Positions 5,816 to 15,205 of a stretch of 17,670 bases of DNA are shown here, one piece after another. This DNA comes from Desulfobacteraceae bacterium 4572_89 (GTDB lineage: Bacteria; Desulfobacterota; Desulfobacteria; Desulfobacterales; Desulfobacteraceae), in contig NBML01000019.1 in NCBI GenBank assembly GCA_002085465.1, positions 1 to 17,670 of the forward strand. The letters run 5' to 3'. Made by a program: the position numbers and the translations under genes. Numbering within the stretch: position 1 is the first letter of the stretch; each line of letters opens with the position of its first letter. A model generated the notes under the pieces. The model made no database searches, was not told the DNA's origin, and was given only the letters and a program-made list of their open reading frames with translations.

Positions 5816-7704
5816 TTGAATGATATCCAGGCCAGACCACTACTCTTTGTTTTCGGAAACAAGGCTATTTTTTTTTACTCAGGCCATGGAAACGAGTTTG
5901 CACACATTTTATTTGCCCTAGTGCCAGTTCTTGAGATCCGGGGTGCTGTCGGCAGAGGCAGCGTCAATCATAATGAGGATGTGGAAAAAATTATCAGAGC
6001 ATTGACCTACGCTGGGTTGCTTGAACCTGACACACCAGCAAATGATTTCAATGCACTCTACCAGGCCATTGAAACCTATCAACGAAGGCTTGGCTCAAAC
6101 AGCCCTGACGGTCGTGTAGATCCCAAGGGACGTACTATTCGCGCCCTACGCTTCGAGATCACTGATAAACTTGTTGTCTATCTTCACAAACACAGGCAGC
6201 ATGGTGATGAATCCAATCCTGGTGATTATTCCTTAAGCAATTGTGTTGTTTTTAATGCGCCTGCTCAACCAGGTGTTTATACCATTGGGTACCAGAGGTT
6301 TCCTTTTATCACCGAGTACCCTTTAACAATTGATAAGGCTAATGAACTTAAGGGTAAACACGGGGAATATGTCAGGAAGATTTTACGATCAGAAAGATAT
6401 CGCCGCTGGGATCAACTGGCAAACTTTAGGGTTACATCAGCCCAGGAGCCAAAGGCAATAAAAAGAAATCTTGCCACCTATTTGCGAATTAACGATAAAT
6501 TTCCTGGAGTAGTGGGGAATATACGCCCGGGGAATTCAACAATACCTATTACATTCGGCTGGCACACAAAACCTGGTTTTGATGACACCGAATTCAGGTA
6601 CCGTCTTTATCCGGATCAACCAAAGTTTTCAAACTGGAGCAACCGGAAGGCCATGGATTATTTTTTCATTGGCCGGGGCTCCCATTCCTTTGAAGTACAA
6701 ACCCGCTATCCCGACGGAAGAGGGCAGTATATTGTTTTGCCTGTCGCAGATTATAGTTTCTTTCTTGAACAGCCTTTTATTTCAAAACCTGTTATTTATA
6801 AGGCAAGCGGGGATCTCATTGATGGGGATCTCATTGATAGTGTTGAAGAGATGCCGGATTTAAAAAATCTCTATGCCAGGAGCAAAGCCCTGCTCATTGG
6901 TATCAGCGAATTTGAGAAAATGAATTTATTACCCTATGTCAATAAAGATATTCAGAAAATAGAGGGTATTCTCCAAAAGCACGGGTTTCAAATCACTACA
7001 ATTTTAGGTAAAAAGACCAGGGATCAAGTCATCACGGCAATGGAGGATTTTCTTGCCGGCCTGGAATCCAATGACAGGGTTATTATTTATTTTTCCACCC
7101 ATGGGTTCCAGGACAAAATCGTTAAGAGTAAAGCCTATATTGCGCCTTATAACTGTGATCCTGACAGGCCCGGTATAAATTGTATTGAACTGGGAGATTT
7201 AGAAAGGCGTATGGAAACAGCACTGGCTAAGTCAGTCAAACATCTTCTTGTGGTGCTTGATGCCTGTTCTTCCGGCCTTGGAGTCGTTGCCAAGAGCCCG
7301 GAATACAAAGAACTGACCATTGCTACTGAACCTGGTGCTCACATGATTACAGCAGGAATGGTTAACTAGAAAGCTGAAATGGACAATGTGGAACAGATCA
7401 GCACCTTTACCCGTTATTTGGCAGAGGGGCTTGATGGGGCAGCAGATTACACGGACGATCAGGTTGTATCCCTTACAGAATTGCTATTGTATGTCAGGTA
7501 TGAGGTAGCCCGGAAAACCCATGGTACACAGACACCCATGATAGGTCGGCTGGACGGAAGCGGAGAGATGATATTTCAATTTCACATGATGCAGCTGTTG
7601 CCGATTCCATTGCAGCCAGAATGGCTGGAGCAATCACCAAAGCCTCGGCAGGGGAGGTAATTGAAAACTGGGGTATTTACCGTCTGAGTTACCAGGTTGA
7701 GTAA
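5816..7704 (+). pseudogene. Caspase-like (peptidase C14) protein gene with PG-binding-like module, interrupted by amber codon and frameshift
   Basis: The first open segment (to TAG at 7367-7369) encodes 517 residues. About 40-112 resemble a peptidoglycan-binding-like repeat (AVGRGSVNHNEDVEKIIRAL, then PDGRVDPKGRTIRAL). About 245-305 resemble a Y_Y_Y/Ig-like beta domain (EFRYRLYPDQ, SHSFEVQTRYPDG). From ~355 comes a caspase fold with the catalytic His429 in YFSTHGF and Cys484 in VVLDACSSG. The TAG interrupts the fold in the same frame. Immediately after it the normal end of the fold resumes (FTRYLAEGLDGAADYTDD, VARKTHGTQTPMIGRLDGSG), ending in that frame at 7660. Between about 7561 and 7588 reading probably shifts into another frame that stays protein-like (DAAVADSIAARMAGAI through IYRLSYQVE) and stops at TAA 7702-7704. 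The start is uncertain: TTG 5816, or GTG 5921, which gives MPVLEIRGAVGRGS directly before the first domain. Neither has a clear ribosome binding site, and no signal peptide is visible. Sequencing error is the main alternative to decay. Confidence 0.75.
6809..6838 (+). repeat. 15-bp perfect tandem duplication inside the caspase gene
   Basis: GGGGATCTCATTGAT occurs twice back to back (6809-6823, 6824-6838). It is in frame and duplicates GDLID in the linker between the beta domain and the caspase domain. It is consistent with replication slippage. Confidence 0.9.
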
Positions 7705-7721: not shown

Positions 7722-9152
7722 TTACAGGTTAGATTTTTTTTCAATACGATATTGAATCTGGATTTTGTTATTATTTTTCAGTTTAAGAGATGCCGGGTTC
7801 AAGACCAGAACAGCACTTGTTGTTCCGGATTCAGTGAGCTTGTCCAATGGTATCTGTTCTGTAAAAATTGTAGAAATATCTCTAAGTAACAGCCCCCCTC
7901 CAATTACCCCAATGGTTTTGGGGATTGGCTTTGCCTCTATCATGACCAGGCCCTTGGGCAATTTTCCTATCCAATAGGGCTGGATGGGCAGTTCTTTTTC
8001 AACAAGGGTATCCAGAGTGACATCAATTTCTGAGGGTTCAATTTTCTTTAATCTGATTCCCGGCGGAAGTACTATGTTTTCCTTGGTGATGGACAGCTGA
8101 TTACTGCCCACAGCAGACTGGGACAGGTTAAGCTTAACATTGATTTGTTCAGGTTTGAGGGCATTGATTAAGGGCCTTGCACCGCTGATCAAAAGCGTAA
8201 CATTGGAAGAGGAAGTTGATATGATTTCCATTTTTTGATCCGGGTTTATAAATTCCACAGGCACCTTGTGTGAAGCAAGGGTTTCCATTCCTTTTGAAAA
8301 ACTGAGCCAAATCCCTGTAATACAGAAAAGACTGATCAAGGCAACAATGGCTAACTCCTTTGTCTGGCGCCTGAGCCCTTTATCGCCAGTATCATTTCCA
8401 GCATGTTCCTGAAGCAATTTTTCAAGGGCGGAACGGTTATGGATATTATATATTTTGTTTTTTTTGAATATTGTTATTTTCCCTCTTTCTTCTGAAACAA
8501 CAATAACCAGAGCATCTGTAAGTTCGCTAACTCCGGATGCTGCCCTGTGACGGGTACCGAAAAAAGAAGGCAGATCCTCTCTTTTGGATAGGGGAAGGAT
8601 CACACCTGCGCTGGTGATCAGGTCTCCCTGTATGATACTGGCCCCGTCGTGTACTGGATTATCAGGCCAGAAAATACTTACAAGCATTTCTCTGGACAGC
8701 TTGCCCATTACAGAAATTCCTCCTTGAACAATATTGTCCATACCCTGTTTCAGGGGCAGTACGATCAAAGCCCCGATTTTTTTTTGGGCCAGCTCCTGGA
8801 CACTTTCAACAATAATATCCAAAGGAGTGTTGAATTGATGCCTGGGGATTCCCCATAAAAATGATTTCAGGTTTTTGGTCTGGATAATGCTGGAGATTTC
8901 ATTTCTGAAAACAATTATTATAACAAAGGCTGCCACGGTAATAACACCCTGCATTGCCCAGTTGGTTATTATTAAGCCCAGGGAAACCGCTGCCTGGCTG
9001 ACAGCCCATAAAGCACAAATGACCAGCAGTCCCCGGATAACGTTGGTTCCCCTGAAAAGTACATATAGTCGAAAGAAAATATAGGTGTTTAACAGGATAT
9101 CCAGTGCATCCTGCCAGCGAAATCCGGAAAATAAATAAAAAAGTTGTTCCAT
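7722..9152 (-). CDS. cdaA: Diadenylate cyclase CdaA (DisA_N) fused to a YbbR/CdaR-like C-terminal region
   Basis: This 476-residue membrane protein should make cyclic di-AMP from two ATP. Hydrophobic segments span about 17-34, 38-58 and 62-82. The cyclase domain covers ~95-250 with the signature VHDGA (D169-G-A) and the nucleotide-binding R201-H-R in GTRHRAASG. A fourth membrane segment (~266-286) is followed by a predicted extracytoplasmic region, ~292-470. That region resembles one or two YbbR repeats (KVPVEFINPDQKMEIISTSS; VEKELPIQPYWIGKLPKG). In Firmicutes these two parts are separate genes, cdaA and cdaR, with CdaR modulating CdaA. Here they form one chain. The usual partner glmM is not in the window. 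The ATG lies 6 nt after the DUF2914 stop, so the two are an operon. The gene converges on the caspase gene with a 17-nt gap. Confidence 0.93.
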   Translation of the reverse strand: MEQLFYLFSGFRWQDALDILLNTYIFFRLYVLFRGTNVIRGLLVICALWAVSQAAVSLGLIITNWAMQGVITVAAFVIIIVFRNEISSIIQTKNLKSFLWGIPRHQFNTPLDIIVESVQELAQKKIGALIVLPLKQGMDNIVQGGISVMGKLSREMLVSIFWPDNPVHDGASIIQGDLITSAGVILPLSKREDLPSFFGTRHRAASGVSELTDALVIVVSEERGKITIFKKNKIYNIHNRSALEKLLQEHAGNDTGDKGLRRQTKELAIVALISLFCITGIWLSFSKGMETLASHKVPVEFINPDQKMEIISTSSSNVTLLISGARPLINALKPEQINVKLNLSQSAVGSNQLSITKENIVLPPGIRLKKIEPSEIDVTLDTLVEKELPIQPYWIGKLPKGLVMIEAKPIPKTIGVIGGGLLLRDISTIFTEQIPLDKLTESGTTSAVLVLNPASLKLKNNNKIQIQYRIEKKSNL

Positions 9153-9822: not shown

Positions 9823-10209
9823 ATGCCAAGACCCAAAAGACCCAGATATATTGTATCAAGGCCTGTCACAAGGGGATTCATCCCCGAGGGAACCCAGGAA
9901 ACAGGCCAGGTGATCCTTTCTCTGGAAGAGTTTGAAGCCATCAGACTCATCGACTTTAAGGGCATGGATCAAAGTCAGGCTGCAACCATGATGAATGTAT
10001 CAAGGCAAACTTTTGGAAGGATACTGAAAAGTGCCAGGTTCAATCTCTCCAAGGCCCTTGTAACAGGTCAACGGTTGACAGTAAAAGGCGGGTGCTATGA
10101 AATGTCAGGTCAAAGAGCTGGCAGAGGCCATGGACGTGGCAAAGGGCCGGGAGGTGGAAGAGGCAGAGGCCACGGAAAAGGCAACTGCAGTTACAGAAAG
10201 AACATCTAA
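9823..10209 (+). CDS. DUF134 family helix-turn-helix protein with Gly/Arg-rich tail
   Basis: This 128-residue cytoplasmic protein begins MPRPKRPRYI, typical of DUF134. Residues ~28-45 (GQVILSLEEFEAIRLIDF) and ~48-80 (QSQAATMMNVSRQTFGRILKSAR) form a sigma-region-4-like helix-turn-helix, so DNA binding is likely. The last ~35 residues are a Gly/Arg/His-rich tail (GRGHGRGKG repeated) ending with a lone Cys. DUF134 genes often stand beside genes for nitrogenase-cofactor-like (NifX/NifB-type) and Mrp/NBP35 ATPase proteins, but neither is present here. The ribosome binding site is GAGGAAG before the ATG. It is the first gene of an operon with DUF5320. Confidence 0.9.
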   Translation: MPRPKRPRYIVSRPVTRGFIPEGTQETGQVILSLEEFEAIRLIDFKGMDQSQAATMMNVSRQTFGRILKSARFNLSKALVTGQRLTVKGGCYEMSGQRAGRGHGRGKGPGGGRGRGHGKGNCSYRKNI

Positions 10210-10235
10210 ATTGTTTACACAAAGGAGGTATAATT

Positions 10236-10541
10236 ATGCCTGGATTTAACCAAAGAGGACCCATGAATGAAGGACCCATGACAGGAAGAAGACAGGGTGT
10301 GTGCGGAAGAGGAACCGATAGTGGCGCCCAGGGCGGTACATTTGATGCCATGGGATATGGCAGAGGCCGTGGAATGGGTAGAAGAGGAGGATCAGGCCCG
10401 GGCTGGGGAAGAGGCTATGGCCAGATGAACACGTCCTTCACCCCTCCAGCAACAGAGGAGAGTCTCAAAATGCGGGCACAAACCCTGGAAGCAGAGTTGG
10501 ATGCCATTAAAAATGATCTGGCAAAATTGTCCAAATCATAA
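10236..10541 (+). CDS. DUF5320 family small Gly/Arg/Met-rich protein
   Basis: This 101-residue protein has a low-complexity first half (GPMNEGPMTGRRQGVCGRG, then GYGRGRGMGRRGGSGPGWGRG) and a helical, probably coiled-coil end (~68-98, EESLKMRAQTLEAELDAIKN). This matches the DUF5320 layout. It follows DUF134 by 26 nt, has a perfect AAAGGAGG ribosome binding site and is followed by a strong terminator, so it should be highly translated. The function is unknown. Its Gly/Arg-rich segment resembles the tail of the neighbouring DUF134 protein, which hints at shared binding to nucleic acid, metal or each other. Confidence 0.85.
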   Translation: MPGFNQRGPMNEGPMTGRRQGVCGRGTDSGAQGGTFDAMGYGRGRGMGRRGGSGPGWGRGYGQMNTSFTPPATEESLKMRAQTLEAELDAIKNDLAKLSKS

Positions 10542-11456: not shown

Positions 11457-11471
11457 TTTTGGGAGAGAAAA

Positions 11472-12110
11472 ATGGCCAAAGACCTGGTGCTTGAAATATT
11501 TTCTGATTATGTCTGACCCTGGTGTTACTTCATTACCGGGAGTATTGAAAAATTACAGAAAACCTATGGAATTCAAATTAAATGGAGGGCTTTTCCCCTT
11601 CATCCAGAGACCCCTGAACAGGGGCTTTCCCTTGAAAAGTTGTTTGCAGAAAAGGGAATCCCTGCAGATGTTGACAAGATCATGACCCGCCTCAAAGCCA
11701 CGGCTGCAAAATTTAATCTTCCCATGGGAGATCGGAAAATGACTTTTAACAGCAGGCTTGCCCAGGAATTAGGGCTCTGGGCAGAATCAAAGGGAAAGGG
11801 GCACGCCTTCCATGATGCTGCCTTTAAAGCTTATTTTGCGGATGGCCTTAACCTTGCCCGAAAAGAGGTGCTGCTGGAGATGGTCAACTTCCTTGGGCTT
11901 GATCCGGTTGAGGGGGAAGATGTTATTGATCAAAGGATTTTTAAGGCTGCTGTGGATGAAGACTGGGAATTGTCCAGGGCAAAGGGAATCACCGCAGTTC
12001 CCACAATGATAATGGGGCTGGACAGGCTGGTGGGGGCCCAGACCCATGAAGTCCTGGAAAAGCTTGTGGTTAAATATGGGGGAAAGATTCAACCCCTGGA
12101 ACAGGTCTGA
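11472..12110 (+). CDS. DsbA/FrnE-like thioredoxin-fold oxidoreductase, selenoprotein (UGA = Sec15)
   Basis: The gene encodes a 212-residue DsbA-family (FrnE/2-hydroxychromene-2-carboxylate isomerase-like) protein without a signal peptide, so it is probably a cytoplasmic thiol/selenol oxidoreductase. The ATG has an excellent GGGAGAG upstream. The frame reads MAKDLVLEIFSDYV, then TGA (11514-11516), then PWCYFITGSIEKLQKTYG, and stays open to 12110. The family's active site is normally CPWC at exactly this place, so the TGA replaces the first, nucleophilic Cys (Sec15; Cys18 is the partner). The cis-proline loop is conserved (GITAVPT, P177), as is the helical insert. Without recoding the protein would lack its first beta strand and active site. 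Selenoprotein forms of DsbA/FrnE-like proteins are known from deltaproteobacteria. A stop 9 nt before the DUF2868 gene suggests an operon. The substrate is unknown. Confidence 0.92.
11529..11549 (+). promoter_or_regulatory. Candidate bacterial SECIS element
   Basis: Downstream of the UGA, TTCAT (11529-11533) can pair with ATGAA-like sequence (TTGAA region 11544-11549, with bulged U), and AC (11535-11536) with GT (11542-11543). This leaves the apical loop CGGGA (11537-11541). The loop lies about 20 nt after the UGA and has a G in its first two positions with a bulged U in the stem, as expected for bacterial SECIS elements. A competing fold pairs CCC (11517-11519) with GGG (11538-11540) and GGU with ACC. 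No folding program was run. Confidence 0.5.
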
Positions 12111-12119
12111 CTTTGCTTT

Positions 12120-13796
12120 ATGGGTACAAACATGGCTATCCAATTGAAAGATATCATTGATCTGGATTTTCTTTTAGATATAGATGAGAACAACCAGTCA
12201 AAAAATAATAGAGAAGAGATCGCTGCAAGGGACAGGGATATCTTCAACCACTTGGATCTTACCGGTATAGATCAAACTGGTATAAATCAAATTGAAATGG
12301 ATGATAAATCCCTGATTTTTTCCTGGCTTGAATATCGAAAACTAGTGTATTTTCATGGGCCAGGTAAAGAAGAATCAGGTAAAAAAGAGTCAAACAAAAA
12401 AAAATCTAAAAGATTGCCGGGAACTGTATTCGCATCCCTATATCGATGTATGGTATATGTCATGCTGGCCGCGGGAGGGTTGTCCGGCATGTCCATGGCC
12501 TATTCTTTCCTTGCCTACCACGGGACCAGGCCCATTAATGTGGGTGTTTTTTTTATGGTTTTTATTTTACTCCCTGTGTTATTGCTTGCCCTGACTCTCC
12601 TGGTGCTGTTGGTTAGATTTATCAGGAAAAGGACAGGCATGGTTAATGGCCATAATTCCATGGTCCATATTCTGATTTCATTTTTCTTTTTCAGGGTTCT
12701 GCCAAGTATTATAAAAAAAGCAGGCAGGTTCATGGAGGAAAAGAAAATAGACAATATAGAATATGCGTCTTCCCTGATCCAGACAAAAAGCCGGGAATAC
12801 AAAGCATTGTTTTTTTTTCCTTTTTTTATCATGTCGTCTTTGTTTTCTGCTGCATTTTCAGCTGGAGCCCTGGCCAGTGTATTGTTCCGGGTAGCTGTCA
12901 GCGACATGGCTTTTGGCTGGCAATCCACCCTTATGACCTCAAGTGCCCGTCTACATGGCGCAATATCCATGATTTCTCTGCCCTGGTCCTGGTTTGTGCC
13001 AACCTCCCTTGCCCAACCAAACCTTGAACAGATAGAAGGTTCCCGGATATTGTTAAAGGAAGGTATTGCCTCCCTTGCCACAACAGATCTTGTTTCCTGG
13101 TGGCCTTTTCTCTGTATGGGCATCCTGTTCTATGGGGTTCTTCCAAGGGTTGTTCTGATCATGGCCTTTGCCATGGCCCAGAAAAAAGCCCTGGATCAAT
13201 TTGATTTTGAAAGGCCCCGGTTTAAAAGACTGGTGGTCAGGATGCGGTCCCCAGTCATGGATGTGGGGTTTAAGGAACAGCCAGTGAGCCAGGCCCGTCA
13301 AGGGAAAAATCCTCTGCCTGACCCCTTGTTGCAGGATGAGGCCTTAGCTGAAAAGGCTTTGGAAAAAGCTGCTCAATTCCCGGGAACCAGGGCTCTGGTC
13401 CTGGCATCAGGATCTGTCTACGGGGATGAAGCCCTTGGGATTGTCAACCAGTTTATCAACCATCAATTGTTTTTTGATGTGGGTTTAACTTCCTTTATTT
13501 TTTTTGATTATACCCAGGATAAAGAAACACTGGTGTCCCTTGCTGCAAAAGATCCTGCTGACCATATTATTGTTCTTCAGGAGGTCTGGCAGCCGCCTAT
13601 CCGGGGATTGCTCCATTATTTTGTTCAATTAAAGACCAAGGTGTTTATAAATAAATCTCTGTGGATCATTTTGACCCAGACTCCAGGAGAGGAAAGTCTG
13701 GCCGTGGACAGAGAAGATATGAATTTTAAGGTTTGGAAAAAAGCAGTGCGCCAGCTTGGCAACCCGGATATCATGCTGGAAAGGCTGAGTAAATGA
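12120..13796 (+). CDS. DUF2868 integral membrane protein
   Basis: This protein of up to 558 residues belongs to DUF2868, usually paired with a DUF3482 GTPase as here. Residues ~33-40 have the AARDRDI motif. A Lys/Ser-rich linker (~84-98) leads to LPGTVFASL. Membrane segments lie at about 108-133, 141-167, 228-257 and 325-350, and HGTRPINVG (134-142) between the first two is typical. The C-terminal ~150 residues are soluble, with alternating strands and helices (GTRALVLASGS, DHIIVLQEVWQPPIRGLLHYF, KSLWIILTQTPGE). The function is not established. The pair suggests a membrane-anchored GTPase system. Start choice: ATG 12120 or ATG 12132 (MAIQLKDIIDL); neither has a strong ribosome binding site. 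The stop overlaps the start of the GTPase gene by 4 nt (ATGA). Confidence 0.85.
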   Translation: MGTNMAIQLKDIIDLDFLLDIDENNQSKNNREEIAARDRDIFNHLDLTGIDQTGINQIEMDDKSLIFSWLEYRKLVYFHGPGKEESGKKESNKKKSKRLPGTVFASLYRCMVYVMLAAGGLSGMSMAYSFLAYHGTRPINVGVFFMVFILLPVLLLALTLLVLLVRFIRKRTGMVNGHNSMVHILISFFFFRVLPSIIKKAGRFMEEKKIDNIEYASSLIQTKSREYKALFFFPFFIMSSLFSAAFSAGALASVLFRVAVSDMAFGWQSTLMTSSARLHGAISMISLPWSWFVPTSLAQPNLEQIEGSRILLKEGIASLATTDLVSWWPFLCMGILFYGVLPRVVLIMAFAMAQKKALDQFDFERPRFKRLVVRMRSPVMDVGFKEQPVSQARQGKNPLPDPLLQDEALAEKALEKAAQFPGTRALVLASGSVYGDEALGIVNQFINHQLFFDVGLTSFIFFDYTQDKETLVSLAAKDPADHIIVLQEVWQPPIRGLLHYFVQLKTKVFINKSLWIILTQTPGEESLAVDREDMNFKVWKKAVRQLGNPDIMLERLSK

Positions 13797-15205
13797 CAGA
13801 TTTAATTGATACAGGTCATATTCCGGAATTTGCCGTTCTGGGCCACCCCAACGAAGGAAAATCTTCTGTTGTATCCACCCTGACCGAGGATGATCAGATC
13901 CGGGTCAGCCAGGTGCCTGGTGAAACAAGGGTCTCAAGGACCTATACCGTTAAAATTGATGGGAAAAAAATAATCAGGTTTGTGGATACTCCAGGATTCC
14001 AGACCCCCAGGCAGACCCTTGCCTGGTTCAGGGAGTATATTGGTGATCAGGAAAAGATCCTGGATCAATTTATTGATACCTTTCAAAAAGATCCCTTTTT
14101 CGCGGATGAGTGCGAACTATTGGCTCCCGTTGCCAGGGGTGCTGGAATCATTTATGTGGTGAACGGGTCCAGGCCGGTGAGAGATGATGATATTGCGGAA
14201 ATGGAAATTTTAAGGCTTACGGGCAGACCCCGAATGGCCATCATCAATTCCAAGACCAGGGAAAAGGATTATACCCGTGAATGGAAACAGGAGTTTCGTA
14301 AATATTTTAATTCCATCCGGGTTTTTAACTCCAATACAGCCAATTTCAAGGATCGTATTGGCATGCTTGAAAGCCTAAAATCCATTGACCAGGAGTGGGA
14401 AGACTCCATCTCAAAAGTGATACAGGCCTTTACTGACGAATGGCAAAAACGGAACCAGCTGGCCTCTGCCCATATCACCCATGCCCTGGAAAAAAGTCTG
14501 GGGTTTTTTGTATCGGAAAAACTTTCAGATCGTTCAGACCAGGCCCGGGTTCGGGAAAAATTAAATCAATCCTATCAAAAAAGTATCAGAAGGATTGAAA
14601 AGAAGATGTTTGGTCAGATTAGATCATTGTTTAAACACAATTTGTATGAATATCCCCTTCCCGAATATTCAATGCTACACCATGATTTATTTTCTAAAAA
14701 GACCTGGGAATTGCTGGGCCTGACCAAAAAGCAGCTGGCAGCTGCCGGAGCGGTTGTGGGCGGAACCATGGGTGTTGTGATAGATACTGCTGCGGCCGGT
14801 TTGACCTTTGGGGTGTTTACAGCCCTGGGAGGAGTTCTGGGCGCAGGGTCTGCCCTCATGGGCGGTAAAAAAATGGCCGGAAAATCCAGGTATGGTTTTA
14901 CGCTTGGGGGTGACCGCCTCCAGGTGGGTCCCAATGAAAATCTGCAGTTTTTATATATCCTCATTGACAGGGCCCTGATCTATTATTCCCATATCATAAA
15001 CAGGGCCCATGGCTGCAGGGACATGGGCCAGGGTGATAAAAATACCAGCCAGAAGATGGGAATATCCACGGGATTTTCCAGGGACCAGAGAAACGTGTGT
15101 GCCCGATTTTTCAAGTCAGCCAGGGGGAGATCCATCATCAGGGAAAAAAATGCCATACCTGAGTTTGAACTTCTGGTGGAATCTCTGCTGGATAAGATTG
15201 GTTAA
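13793..15205 (+). CDS. DUF3482 GTPase (Era/YfjP-like G domain)
   Basis: This 470-residue protein has an N-terminal Ras-like G domain: P-loop GHPNEGKS (17-24), switch I region with GETRVSRTYTV, G3 DTPG (65-68) and NSKT (152-155) in place of the usual NKxD. A DUF3482-type region follows. It includes a helical middle (~200-310) and a long Gly/Ala-rich hydrophobic stretch (~318-360, AAAGAVVGGTMGVVIDTAAA) that probably inserts in or sits on the membrane. The C-terminal block (~370-470) contains RYGFTLGGDRLQVGPNENLQFLYILIDRAL. The ATG overlaps the DUF2868 stop by 4 nt, implying coupled translation and a functional complex. The biological role is unknown. Confidence 0.9.
   Translation: MTDLIDTGHIPEFAVLGHPNEGKSSVVSTLTEDDQIRVSQVPGETRVSRTYTVKIDGKKIIRFVDTPGFQTPRQTLAWFREYIGDQEKILDQFIDTFQKDPFFADECELLAPVARGAGIIYVVNGSRPVRDDDIAEMEILRLTGRPRMAIINSKTREKDYTREWKQEFRKYFNSIRVFNSNTANFKDRIGMLESLKSIDQEWEDSISKVIQAFTDEWQKRNQLASAHITHALEKSLGFFVSEKLSDRSDQARVREKLNQSYQKSIRRIEKKMFGQIRSLFKHNLYEYPLPEYSMLHHDLFSKKTWELLGLTKKQLAAAGAVVGGTMGVVIDTAAAGLTFGVFTALGGVLGAGSALMGGKKMAGKSRYGFTLGGDRLQVGPNENLQFLYILIDRALIYYSHIINRAHGCRDMGQGDKNTSQKMGISTGFSRDQRNVCARFFKSARGRSIIREKNAIPEFELLVESLLDKIG

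Follow-up and report, generated by a model that had tools for sequence, protein, structure and literature searches.

The gene at positions 11472..12110 (+ strand) of the window, the whole stretch of 17,670 nt analyzed here, very likely encodes a thiol-disulfide oxidoreductase of FrnE type with a DsbA fold, probably cytoplasmic, in which an in-frame UGA at codon 15 is read as selenocysteine (Sec) by means of a hairpin just 3′ of that codon. DsbA-like UxxC selenoproteins are an already known kind, reported in 2005, and the window gene is a new member.

A DsbA-fold gene interrupted by an in-frame UGA

A Shine-Dalgarno-like GGGAG (11461..11465, + strand) is located 6 nt 5′ of an ATG at 11472. From this start codon, 14 sense codons lead to a TGA at 11514..11516 (+ strand, codon 15), which is followed in the same frame by PWCYF, and the frame then stays open until a second TGA, at 12108-12110, that terminates the gene. 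A sequence-only reading of the stretch had described this same arrangement of ribosome binding site, start, interrupting codon and open frame, and each element is found where it was placed. The read-through product has 212 residues and matches PF01323 (DsbA) over residues 7-198 (Pfam, 4.8e-32). Sec15 and Cys18 are its only Sec or Cys residues. Inspection by eye revealed no signal peptide and, judging from this absence, the enzyme is probably located in the cytoplasm.

It had also been predicted that standard gene calling would start late, near 11640, and lose the active site. Indeed, the mechanical list of open reading frames starts at a TTG at 11640 and yields 156 aa, and the public 156-aa product (P0002), which is 100% identical to the downstream part of the window gene, begins after the site. 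Such errors are frequent in this branch, the UGA being interpreted as a stop by automatic annotation. Among the best 120 of 5265 homologues, 69 begin downstream of the site, a number that counts the window's own P0002 and P0014; another 32 carry W there, in the case of P0004 by a doubtful alignment, and the other 19 carry Cys. The W records are probably cases of TGA read by table 4, many of them on short contigs; the exception is P0028, the only W record traced to DNA, where the W is real (TGG).

The predicted fold and active site resemble FrnE

A profile built from 45 homologues and compared with the PDB matched FrnE of Deinococcus radiodurans (8.6e-29), SCO1869 and HCCA isomerase. The sequence-only reading had asked whether Cys or Sec would align with residue 15 in DsbA/FrnE homologues; in the alignment, it is the first Cys of the FrnE CPWC that sits there. 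An AlphaFold2 model of the product, with Cys substituted for Sec, has a mean pLDDT of 93.9 and a pTM of 0.89, and its best fold match is again FrnE (PDB 5co3/5cnw; E 1.3e-14, TM 0.85 by query length). The predicted secondary structure places a strand at residues 6-11 and a helix at residues 16-20. With the PF01323 match, the strand at 6-11 and the FrnE-like predicted fold, the UPWC center lies after the first strand, the place that the sequence-only reading gave for CPWC in the DsbA/FrnE family, and the protein shows the thioredoxin domain of DsbA type in which CP(W/F)C follows strand 1, Sec replacing the first Cys. Pro177, invariant in the three alignments made, is probably the cis-proline of the fold.

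While FrnE of D. radiodurans (5cnw, 5co3) is the best match by both profile and fold and its CPWC aligns with the UPWC, it differs from the window protein in having Cys in place of Sec and in possessing a C-terminal CXXXXC, which the window protein lacks. This CXXXXC has been proposed to regenerate the active site of the D. radiodurans enzyme, and FrnE of S. roseofulvus and D. maricopensis also lack it (PMC8945050); therefore, it is not a defining element of the FrnE subfamily. FrnE proteins are predicted cytoplasmic thiol oxidoreductases, and a D. radiodurans frnE mutant showed raised sensitivity to cadmium and diamide (PMC8945050). The SCO1869 DsbA oxidoreductase (3gl5), which keeps Cys at the site, and HCCA isomerase (2imd), a protein named as an isomerase, share the fold at a greater distance. 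Within NCBIfam, no model reaches its cut-off on the window protein. The DsbG-like (Rcas_1661) selenolipoprotein model NF041057, which resembles our protein in being a thioredoxin-like selenoprotein listed with UxxC in a review table (PMC13188914), differs in that the window protein scores 24.2 bits against a cut-off of 190, over the C-terminal part only.

The breadth of the fold matches raises the question of what the enzyme acts on. A selenoprotein working on small molecules, by isomerase or glutathione/peroxide chemistry, rather than on protein disulfides would be compatible with Sec at the site and concerns function only; matches of the fold to HCCA isomerase (2imd), DsbM (5hfg) and GST kappa (1r4w), with E values of 5e-10 to 1e-8, and the missing C-terminal CXXXXC of FrnE speak for such a role. 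We nevertheless consider it unlikely, given that the best match by sequence and by fold is FrnE and that both redox positions are retained in the UxxC.

The UGA codon is conserved among relatives

A scan of genome contigs yielded 242 relatives, and the 80 most similar to the window were retained. At the codon corresponding to residue 15, TGA is present in 80/80 of these loci and in the window. Carriers of the gene include Desulfonema magnum 4be13 and Desulfosarcina alkanivorans PL12 (L035 and L038). Together with the PF01323 match of the read-through product, this places the TGA at 11514-11516 beyond chance. Because the 80 loci had been ranked by likeness to the window, further and wider tests were made. 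Within the phylum to which Desulfonema magnum (G018) belongs, 297 genomes were searched for the motif DYx-TGN-PWCYF; it gave 33 matches in 32 genomes, every one of them with TGA (33/33), and the reversed motif gave 0 matches in the same genomes. A slightly looser motif was found in its TGA form in 143 of 389 genomes of the class of Desulfonema magnum; the TGC, TGT and TGG forms amounted to 3 in total, one each. One genome, G407, has a TGT copy plus a separate TGA copy.

A search free of the motif, with P0001 as query against 146 genomes of the order (E<=1e-40), found 57 places in 53 of these genomes, and 54 of the 57 contain an in-frame TGA (two TGAs in one). The position of the TGA within the gene was located for 50 of the 54, all at the site: 47 coincide with motif matches and 3 were placed by reading, with the remaining four belonging to G679, G542, G347 and G541. 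Variant motifs, all with TGA at the site, occur in G476 (UQWC), G385 (UAWC) and G615 (DT for DY). The 3 homologues without TGA are two that were read as TGC in a CPFC motif and the TGT copy of G407. Homologues thus retain the in-frame UGA, and relatives without Sec at this position have Cys in its place.

The same TGA form was observed in another phylum, in L062 (Thermodesulfovibrionia, Nitrospirota, according to its record title), which would be a case of transfer or a binning error. Paralogues are found as well, with two or three TGA motif matches per genome in G577, G254, G340, G341, G483, G558, G640 and others. Viral contigs gave 9 pattern matches with no relative among them, and plasmids gave no match.

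Amino-acid constraint before the UGA and RNA constraint after it

We collected 111 TGA sources (L001-L110 and the window); a pattern applied to one strand found the site in 95 and missed 16 of L081-L110. The 92 distinct full-length stretches were used for the constraint and hairpin analyses, with 1500 sampled pairs for the rates. In the 8 codons before the TGA, pN/pS is 0.096, compared to 0.303 in codons +12..+35, and the codons 5′ of the TGA are therefore under strong purifying selection. In codons +1..+11 it is the synonymous changes that are scarce: pS is 0.319 there versus 0.826 before and 0.773 after. Synonymous choice in this segment is mostly frozen, namely at Phe5 (TTC in 92/92), Arg9 (CGT in 55/55), Ile10 (ATT in 82/84) and Gly8 (GGG in 78/85), while Cys3 (TGC in 66%) and Tyr4 (TAT in 59%) are not.

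These patterns bear on whether the UGA is simply a true stop, with the protein starting downstream without an active site as the public calls have it. The 69 of the 120 listed homologues that begin after the site would agree with this. However, the codons before the TGA would not be expected to be under strong amino-acid constraint, nor the motif around it to be near invariant, and the truncated forms lack strand 1 together with the beginning of the active-site helix. We regard a true stop as very improbable.

A covarying bSECIS-like hairpin downstream of the UGA

Reading the UGA as Sec calls for an RNA signal, and a bSECIS-like hairpin is found at 11529..11549 (+ strand), UUCAUUAC-CGGGA-GUAUUGAA, recognized by the synonymous freeze and by covariation in the 92 distinct sequences. 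Its 8-nt arms (11529-11536 and 11542-11549) contain one unpaired position (U.U) and enclose a 5-nt loop (11537-11541), and the spacing from the UGA to the loop is 20 nt. The second loop position is G in 92/92 sequences, and the next base is G (85) or U (7). Standard pairs make up 0.891 of cells, whereas a null of 1000 codon redraws, which kept the amino acids and followed each gene's codon usage, gave 0.571 (sd 0.011, max 0.605). Covariation amounts to 12 double-change cells in 4 pairs, which 0/500 shuffles reach, in a comparison that ignores relatedness. In L088, the protein sequence is altered and the stem preserved (CGACAC/GUGUCG), and L117, which is not among the 92 sequences, shows G-C at one covarying pair and C.C at the mismatch.

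The bSECIS model prescribes a loop of 3-9 nt, a stem of 4-16 bp, a G in the first two loop positions, a spacing of 16-37 nt and an energy <= -7.5 kcal/mol, and according to the same review some bSECIS elements fail it (PMC13188914). Our hairpin agrees with the model in loop, stem, G and spacing, and falls short in energy: the window hairpin alone has -2.6 kcal/mol, and only 5/92 sequences pass the threshold. The wider region folds to -10.2 by way of a different hairpin, CCCUGGU/ACCGGG, which is the predicted minimum-energy fold and pairs in 0.958 of cells versus a null of 0.676. We rejected this competing hairpin as the SECIS element. Its covariation is no better than in shuffles (1 double-change cell, reached by 301/500), 8 nt separate the UGA from the start of its loop, and it does not explain why third positions are frozen in codons 5, 10 and 11.

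The hairpin also enters into the least credible of the readings, that the UGA is read as tryptophan through a reassigned code or near-cognate read-through to give WPWC: it would draw on the W records and on one relative, L112, that truly has TGG, but the selenoprotein gene itself terminates in TGA, as does the next gene (12120-13796), whose last bases overlap the ATG at 13793, the 14 W records included in our tree scatter beside TGA genes (12 changes) as expected of table-4 callers, and a conserved hairpin after the codon would be unexpected under Trp reassignment.

In forms of the gene with Cys at the site, fewer pairs tend to be kept (6 of 8 in L111 and L115, 5 in L113 and L114) than in the Sec forms (7-8 in 83/92 and 6 in the other 9). 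Because the two ranges touch, decay of the hairpin in Cys forms is only suggestive.

Selenocysteine machinery in related genomes

Insertion of Sec further depends on dedicated machinery, and SelB and tRNA-Sec were sought, with cut-offs, in 22 of the genomes that contribute the 80 loci. SelB was over the cut-off in 21/22 and tRNA-Sec in 19/22. Neither exceeded its cut-off in G002 despite its TGA gene, and in G014 and G015 tRNA-Sec alone fell below. SelA was present in 12/14 genomes searched (it was not found in G022 and G622), and SelD in 7/7, each of its 9 matches containing an in-frame TGA. Neither SelB nor tRNA-Sec is encoded within the 17,670-nt window, which the tRNA search covered.

Proposed mechanism

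Relative to Cys, Sec has a lower pKa and a higher reactivity, as is general in selenium chemistry. The sequence-only reading had proposed that Sec acts as nucleophile in a UPWC center of the FrnE/DsbA type, and the conserved UGA, the covarying hairpin, the Sec machinery of relatives, the alignment with the FrnE Cys and the predicted fold all argue for it. In our model, Sec is very likely the nucleophile. In the source organism, the hairpin would recruit SelB and Sec-tRNA, such that UGA-15 would specify Sec and the terminal UGA would end translation. The Sec15 selenolate would then react with a disulfide, or alternatively with a peroxide or oxidized sulfur of another kind, Cys18 would resolve the adduct as a Sec-Cys selenenylsulfide, and thioredoxin or a small thiol would reduce it. 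The reductase direction, the substrate and the reductant of this scheme are those that we infer.

Sec, Cys and Trp forms within the family

A quick tree of 113 rows was computed with the site masked and SH-aLRT as the only support measure, and was rooted on a chosen CPWCYL row; it took in 14/32 of the W records and 15/19 of the Cys records. One clade of 103 rows (support 100) holds 81 Sec, 14 W, 1 DNA-proven Trp and 7 Cys rows, and the other 10 rows are CPWCYL proteins. The first branch in the 103-row clade, P0094, has Cys, and thus the tree does not fix the state at the very base of the clade. Other Cys rows are placed deeper in the clade, beside Sec rows, as would be expected of changes from Sec to Cys; of these, P0038 and P0079/P0101 come from the database, and L111 and L113 are proven by DNA. 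The placement of L111 and P0065 is unsure due to their long branches.

The Trp row, L112 (genome G556), has TGG at the site, pairs with the Sec row L034 (support 85), shows no difference from P0028 across 206 residues and retains an intact SECIS-like hairpin. No SelB and no tRNA-Sec were found in the G556 assembly. We considered loss of Sec as the cause of the Trp form and rejected it: SelA is present, FdhA and SelD each have one in-frame TGA, and this genome therefore still uses Sec. The absence of SelB and tRNA-Sec is probably due to an incomplete assembly. A UGG codon with the hairpin intact means either that Sec is not indispensable everywhere or that there is a base error.

It is possible, although we lean slightly against it, that Sec is the ancestral and near-obligatory state in this branch, held by a weak covarying SECIS, and that the nested Cys forms and the one Trp form are later departures.

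Gene neighborhood and other features of the window

Downstream of the selenoprotein gene, a DUF2868 protein (Pfam; 12120..13796, + strand) has its ATG 9 bases after the selenoprotein stop, and the DUF2868 gene is a possible operon partner. Next in the same run is a GTPase with DUF3482 (Pfam; 13793..15205, + strand). Relatives of DUF2868 are co-oriented neighbors at 15/81 loci and those of DUF3482 at 10/81 (the window included, many loci having short flanks). We looked to these neighbors for a hint of function and obtained none, both being without known function. The other recurrent neighbors, such as a histidine kinase, heavy-metal ATPase, LysE exporter, ABC transporter and old-yellow-enzyme among others, share no common theme.

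Elsewhere in the window, a caspase-like reading frame (PF00656; 5816-7660, + strand) ends in TAG at 7367-7369 while the same frame runs on to 7660. The part after the TAG looks by eye like the rest of the caspase domain; Pfam finds nothing there. The TAG may reflect a broken gene, a base error or, less likely, pyrrolysine, which is used in related deltaproteobacteria (PMC8318568). On the opposite strand, a single protein encoded at 7722-9152 (−) combines a diadenylate cyclase domain (DAC) with a YbbR domain, and 9823-10541 (+) encodes DUF134 followed by a Gly-rich DUF5320 protein.

Discussion

We take COG2761 to be the FrnE group. The Sargasso Sea paper of 2005 placed a DsbA-like UXXC selenoprotein, with nine sequences, under COG2761 (PMC1088965), and a 2006 paper listed DsbA-like selenoproteins in deltaproteobacteria (PMC1794560). 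The UxxC form of PF01323 is also listed in a 2022 review (PMC9312934) and, as 'form 1', in a 2026 review (PMC13188914). The window protein has the same Pfam domain and the same UxxC arrangement as this DsbA-like selenoprotein (PF01323, COG2761). The 2005 sequences, which we liken to ours by description only, come from marine metagenomes, whereas the present branch is mostly Desulfobacterota by record titles. Among the papers listed by our literature search (FrnE, COG2761 or DsbA-like with selenocysteine or selenoprotein), none had FrnE-type selenoproteins of sulfate reducers as its subject. Selenoprotein counts have been given as 31 in Desulfobacterium autotrophicum (PMC2702500) and 34 in a Desulfobacula-like genome (PMC8318568), and the supplementary lists of these two papers may already name this gene.

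With 69 of the 120 listed homologues lacking the active site, 32 showing W and no NCBIfam model at its cut-off, surveys of selenium use or of Dsb proteins in these bacteria that rest on such records may undercount the family. If Sec is ancestral here, this would oppose the usual view, in which Sec arises from Cys in a scattered manner; the Trp form would be an enzyme retained after loss of its nucleophile. With one Trp and few Cys among many Sec forms, the family is a test case for what keeps Sec in place, and it also offers a covarying SECIS-like hairpin that is too weak for the standard energy rule.
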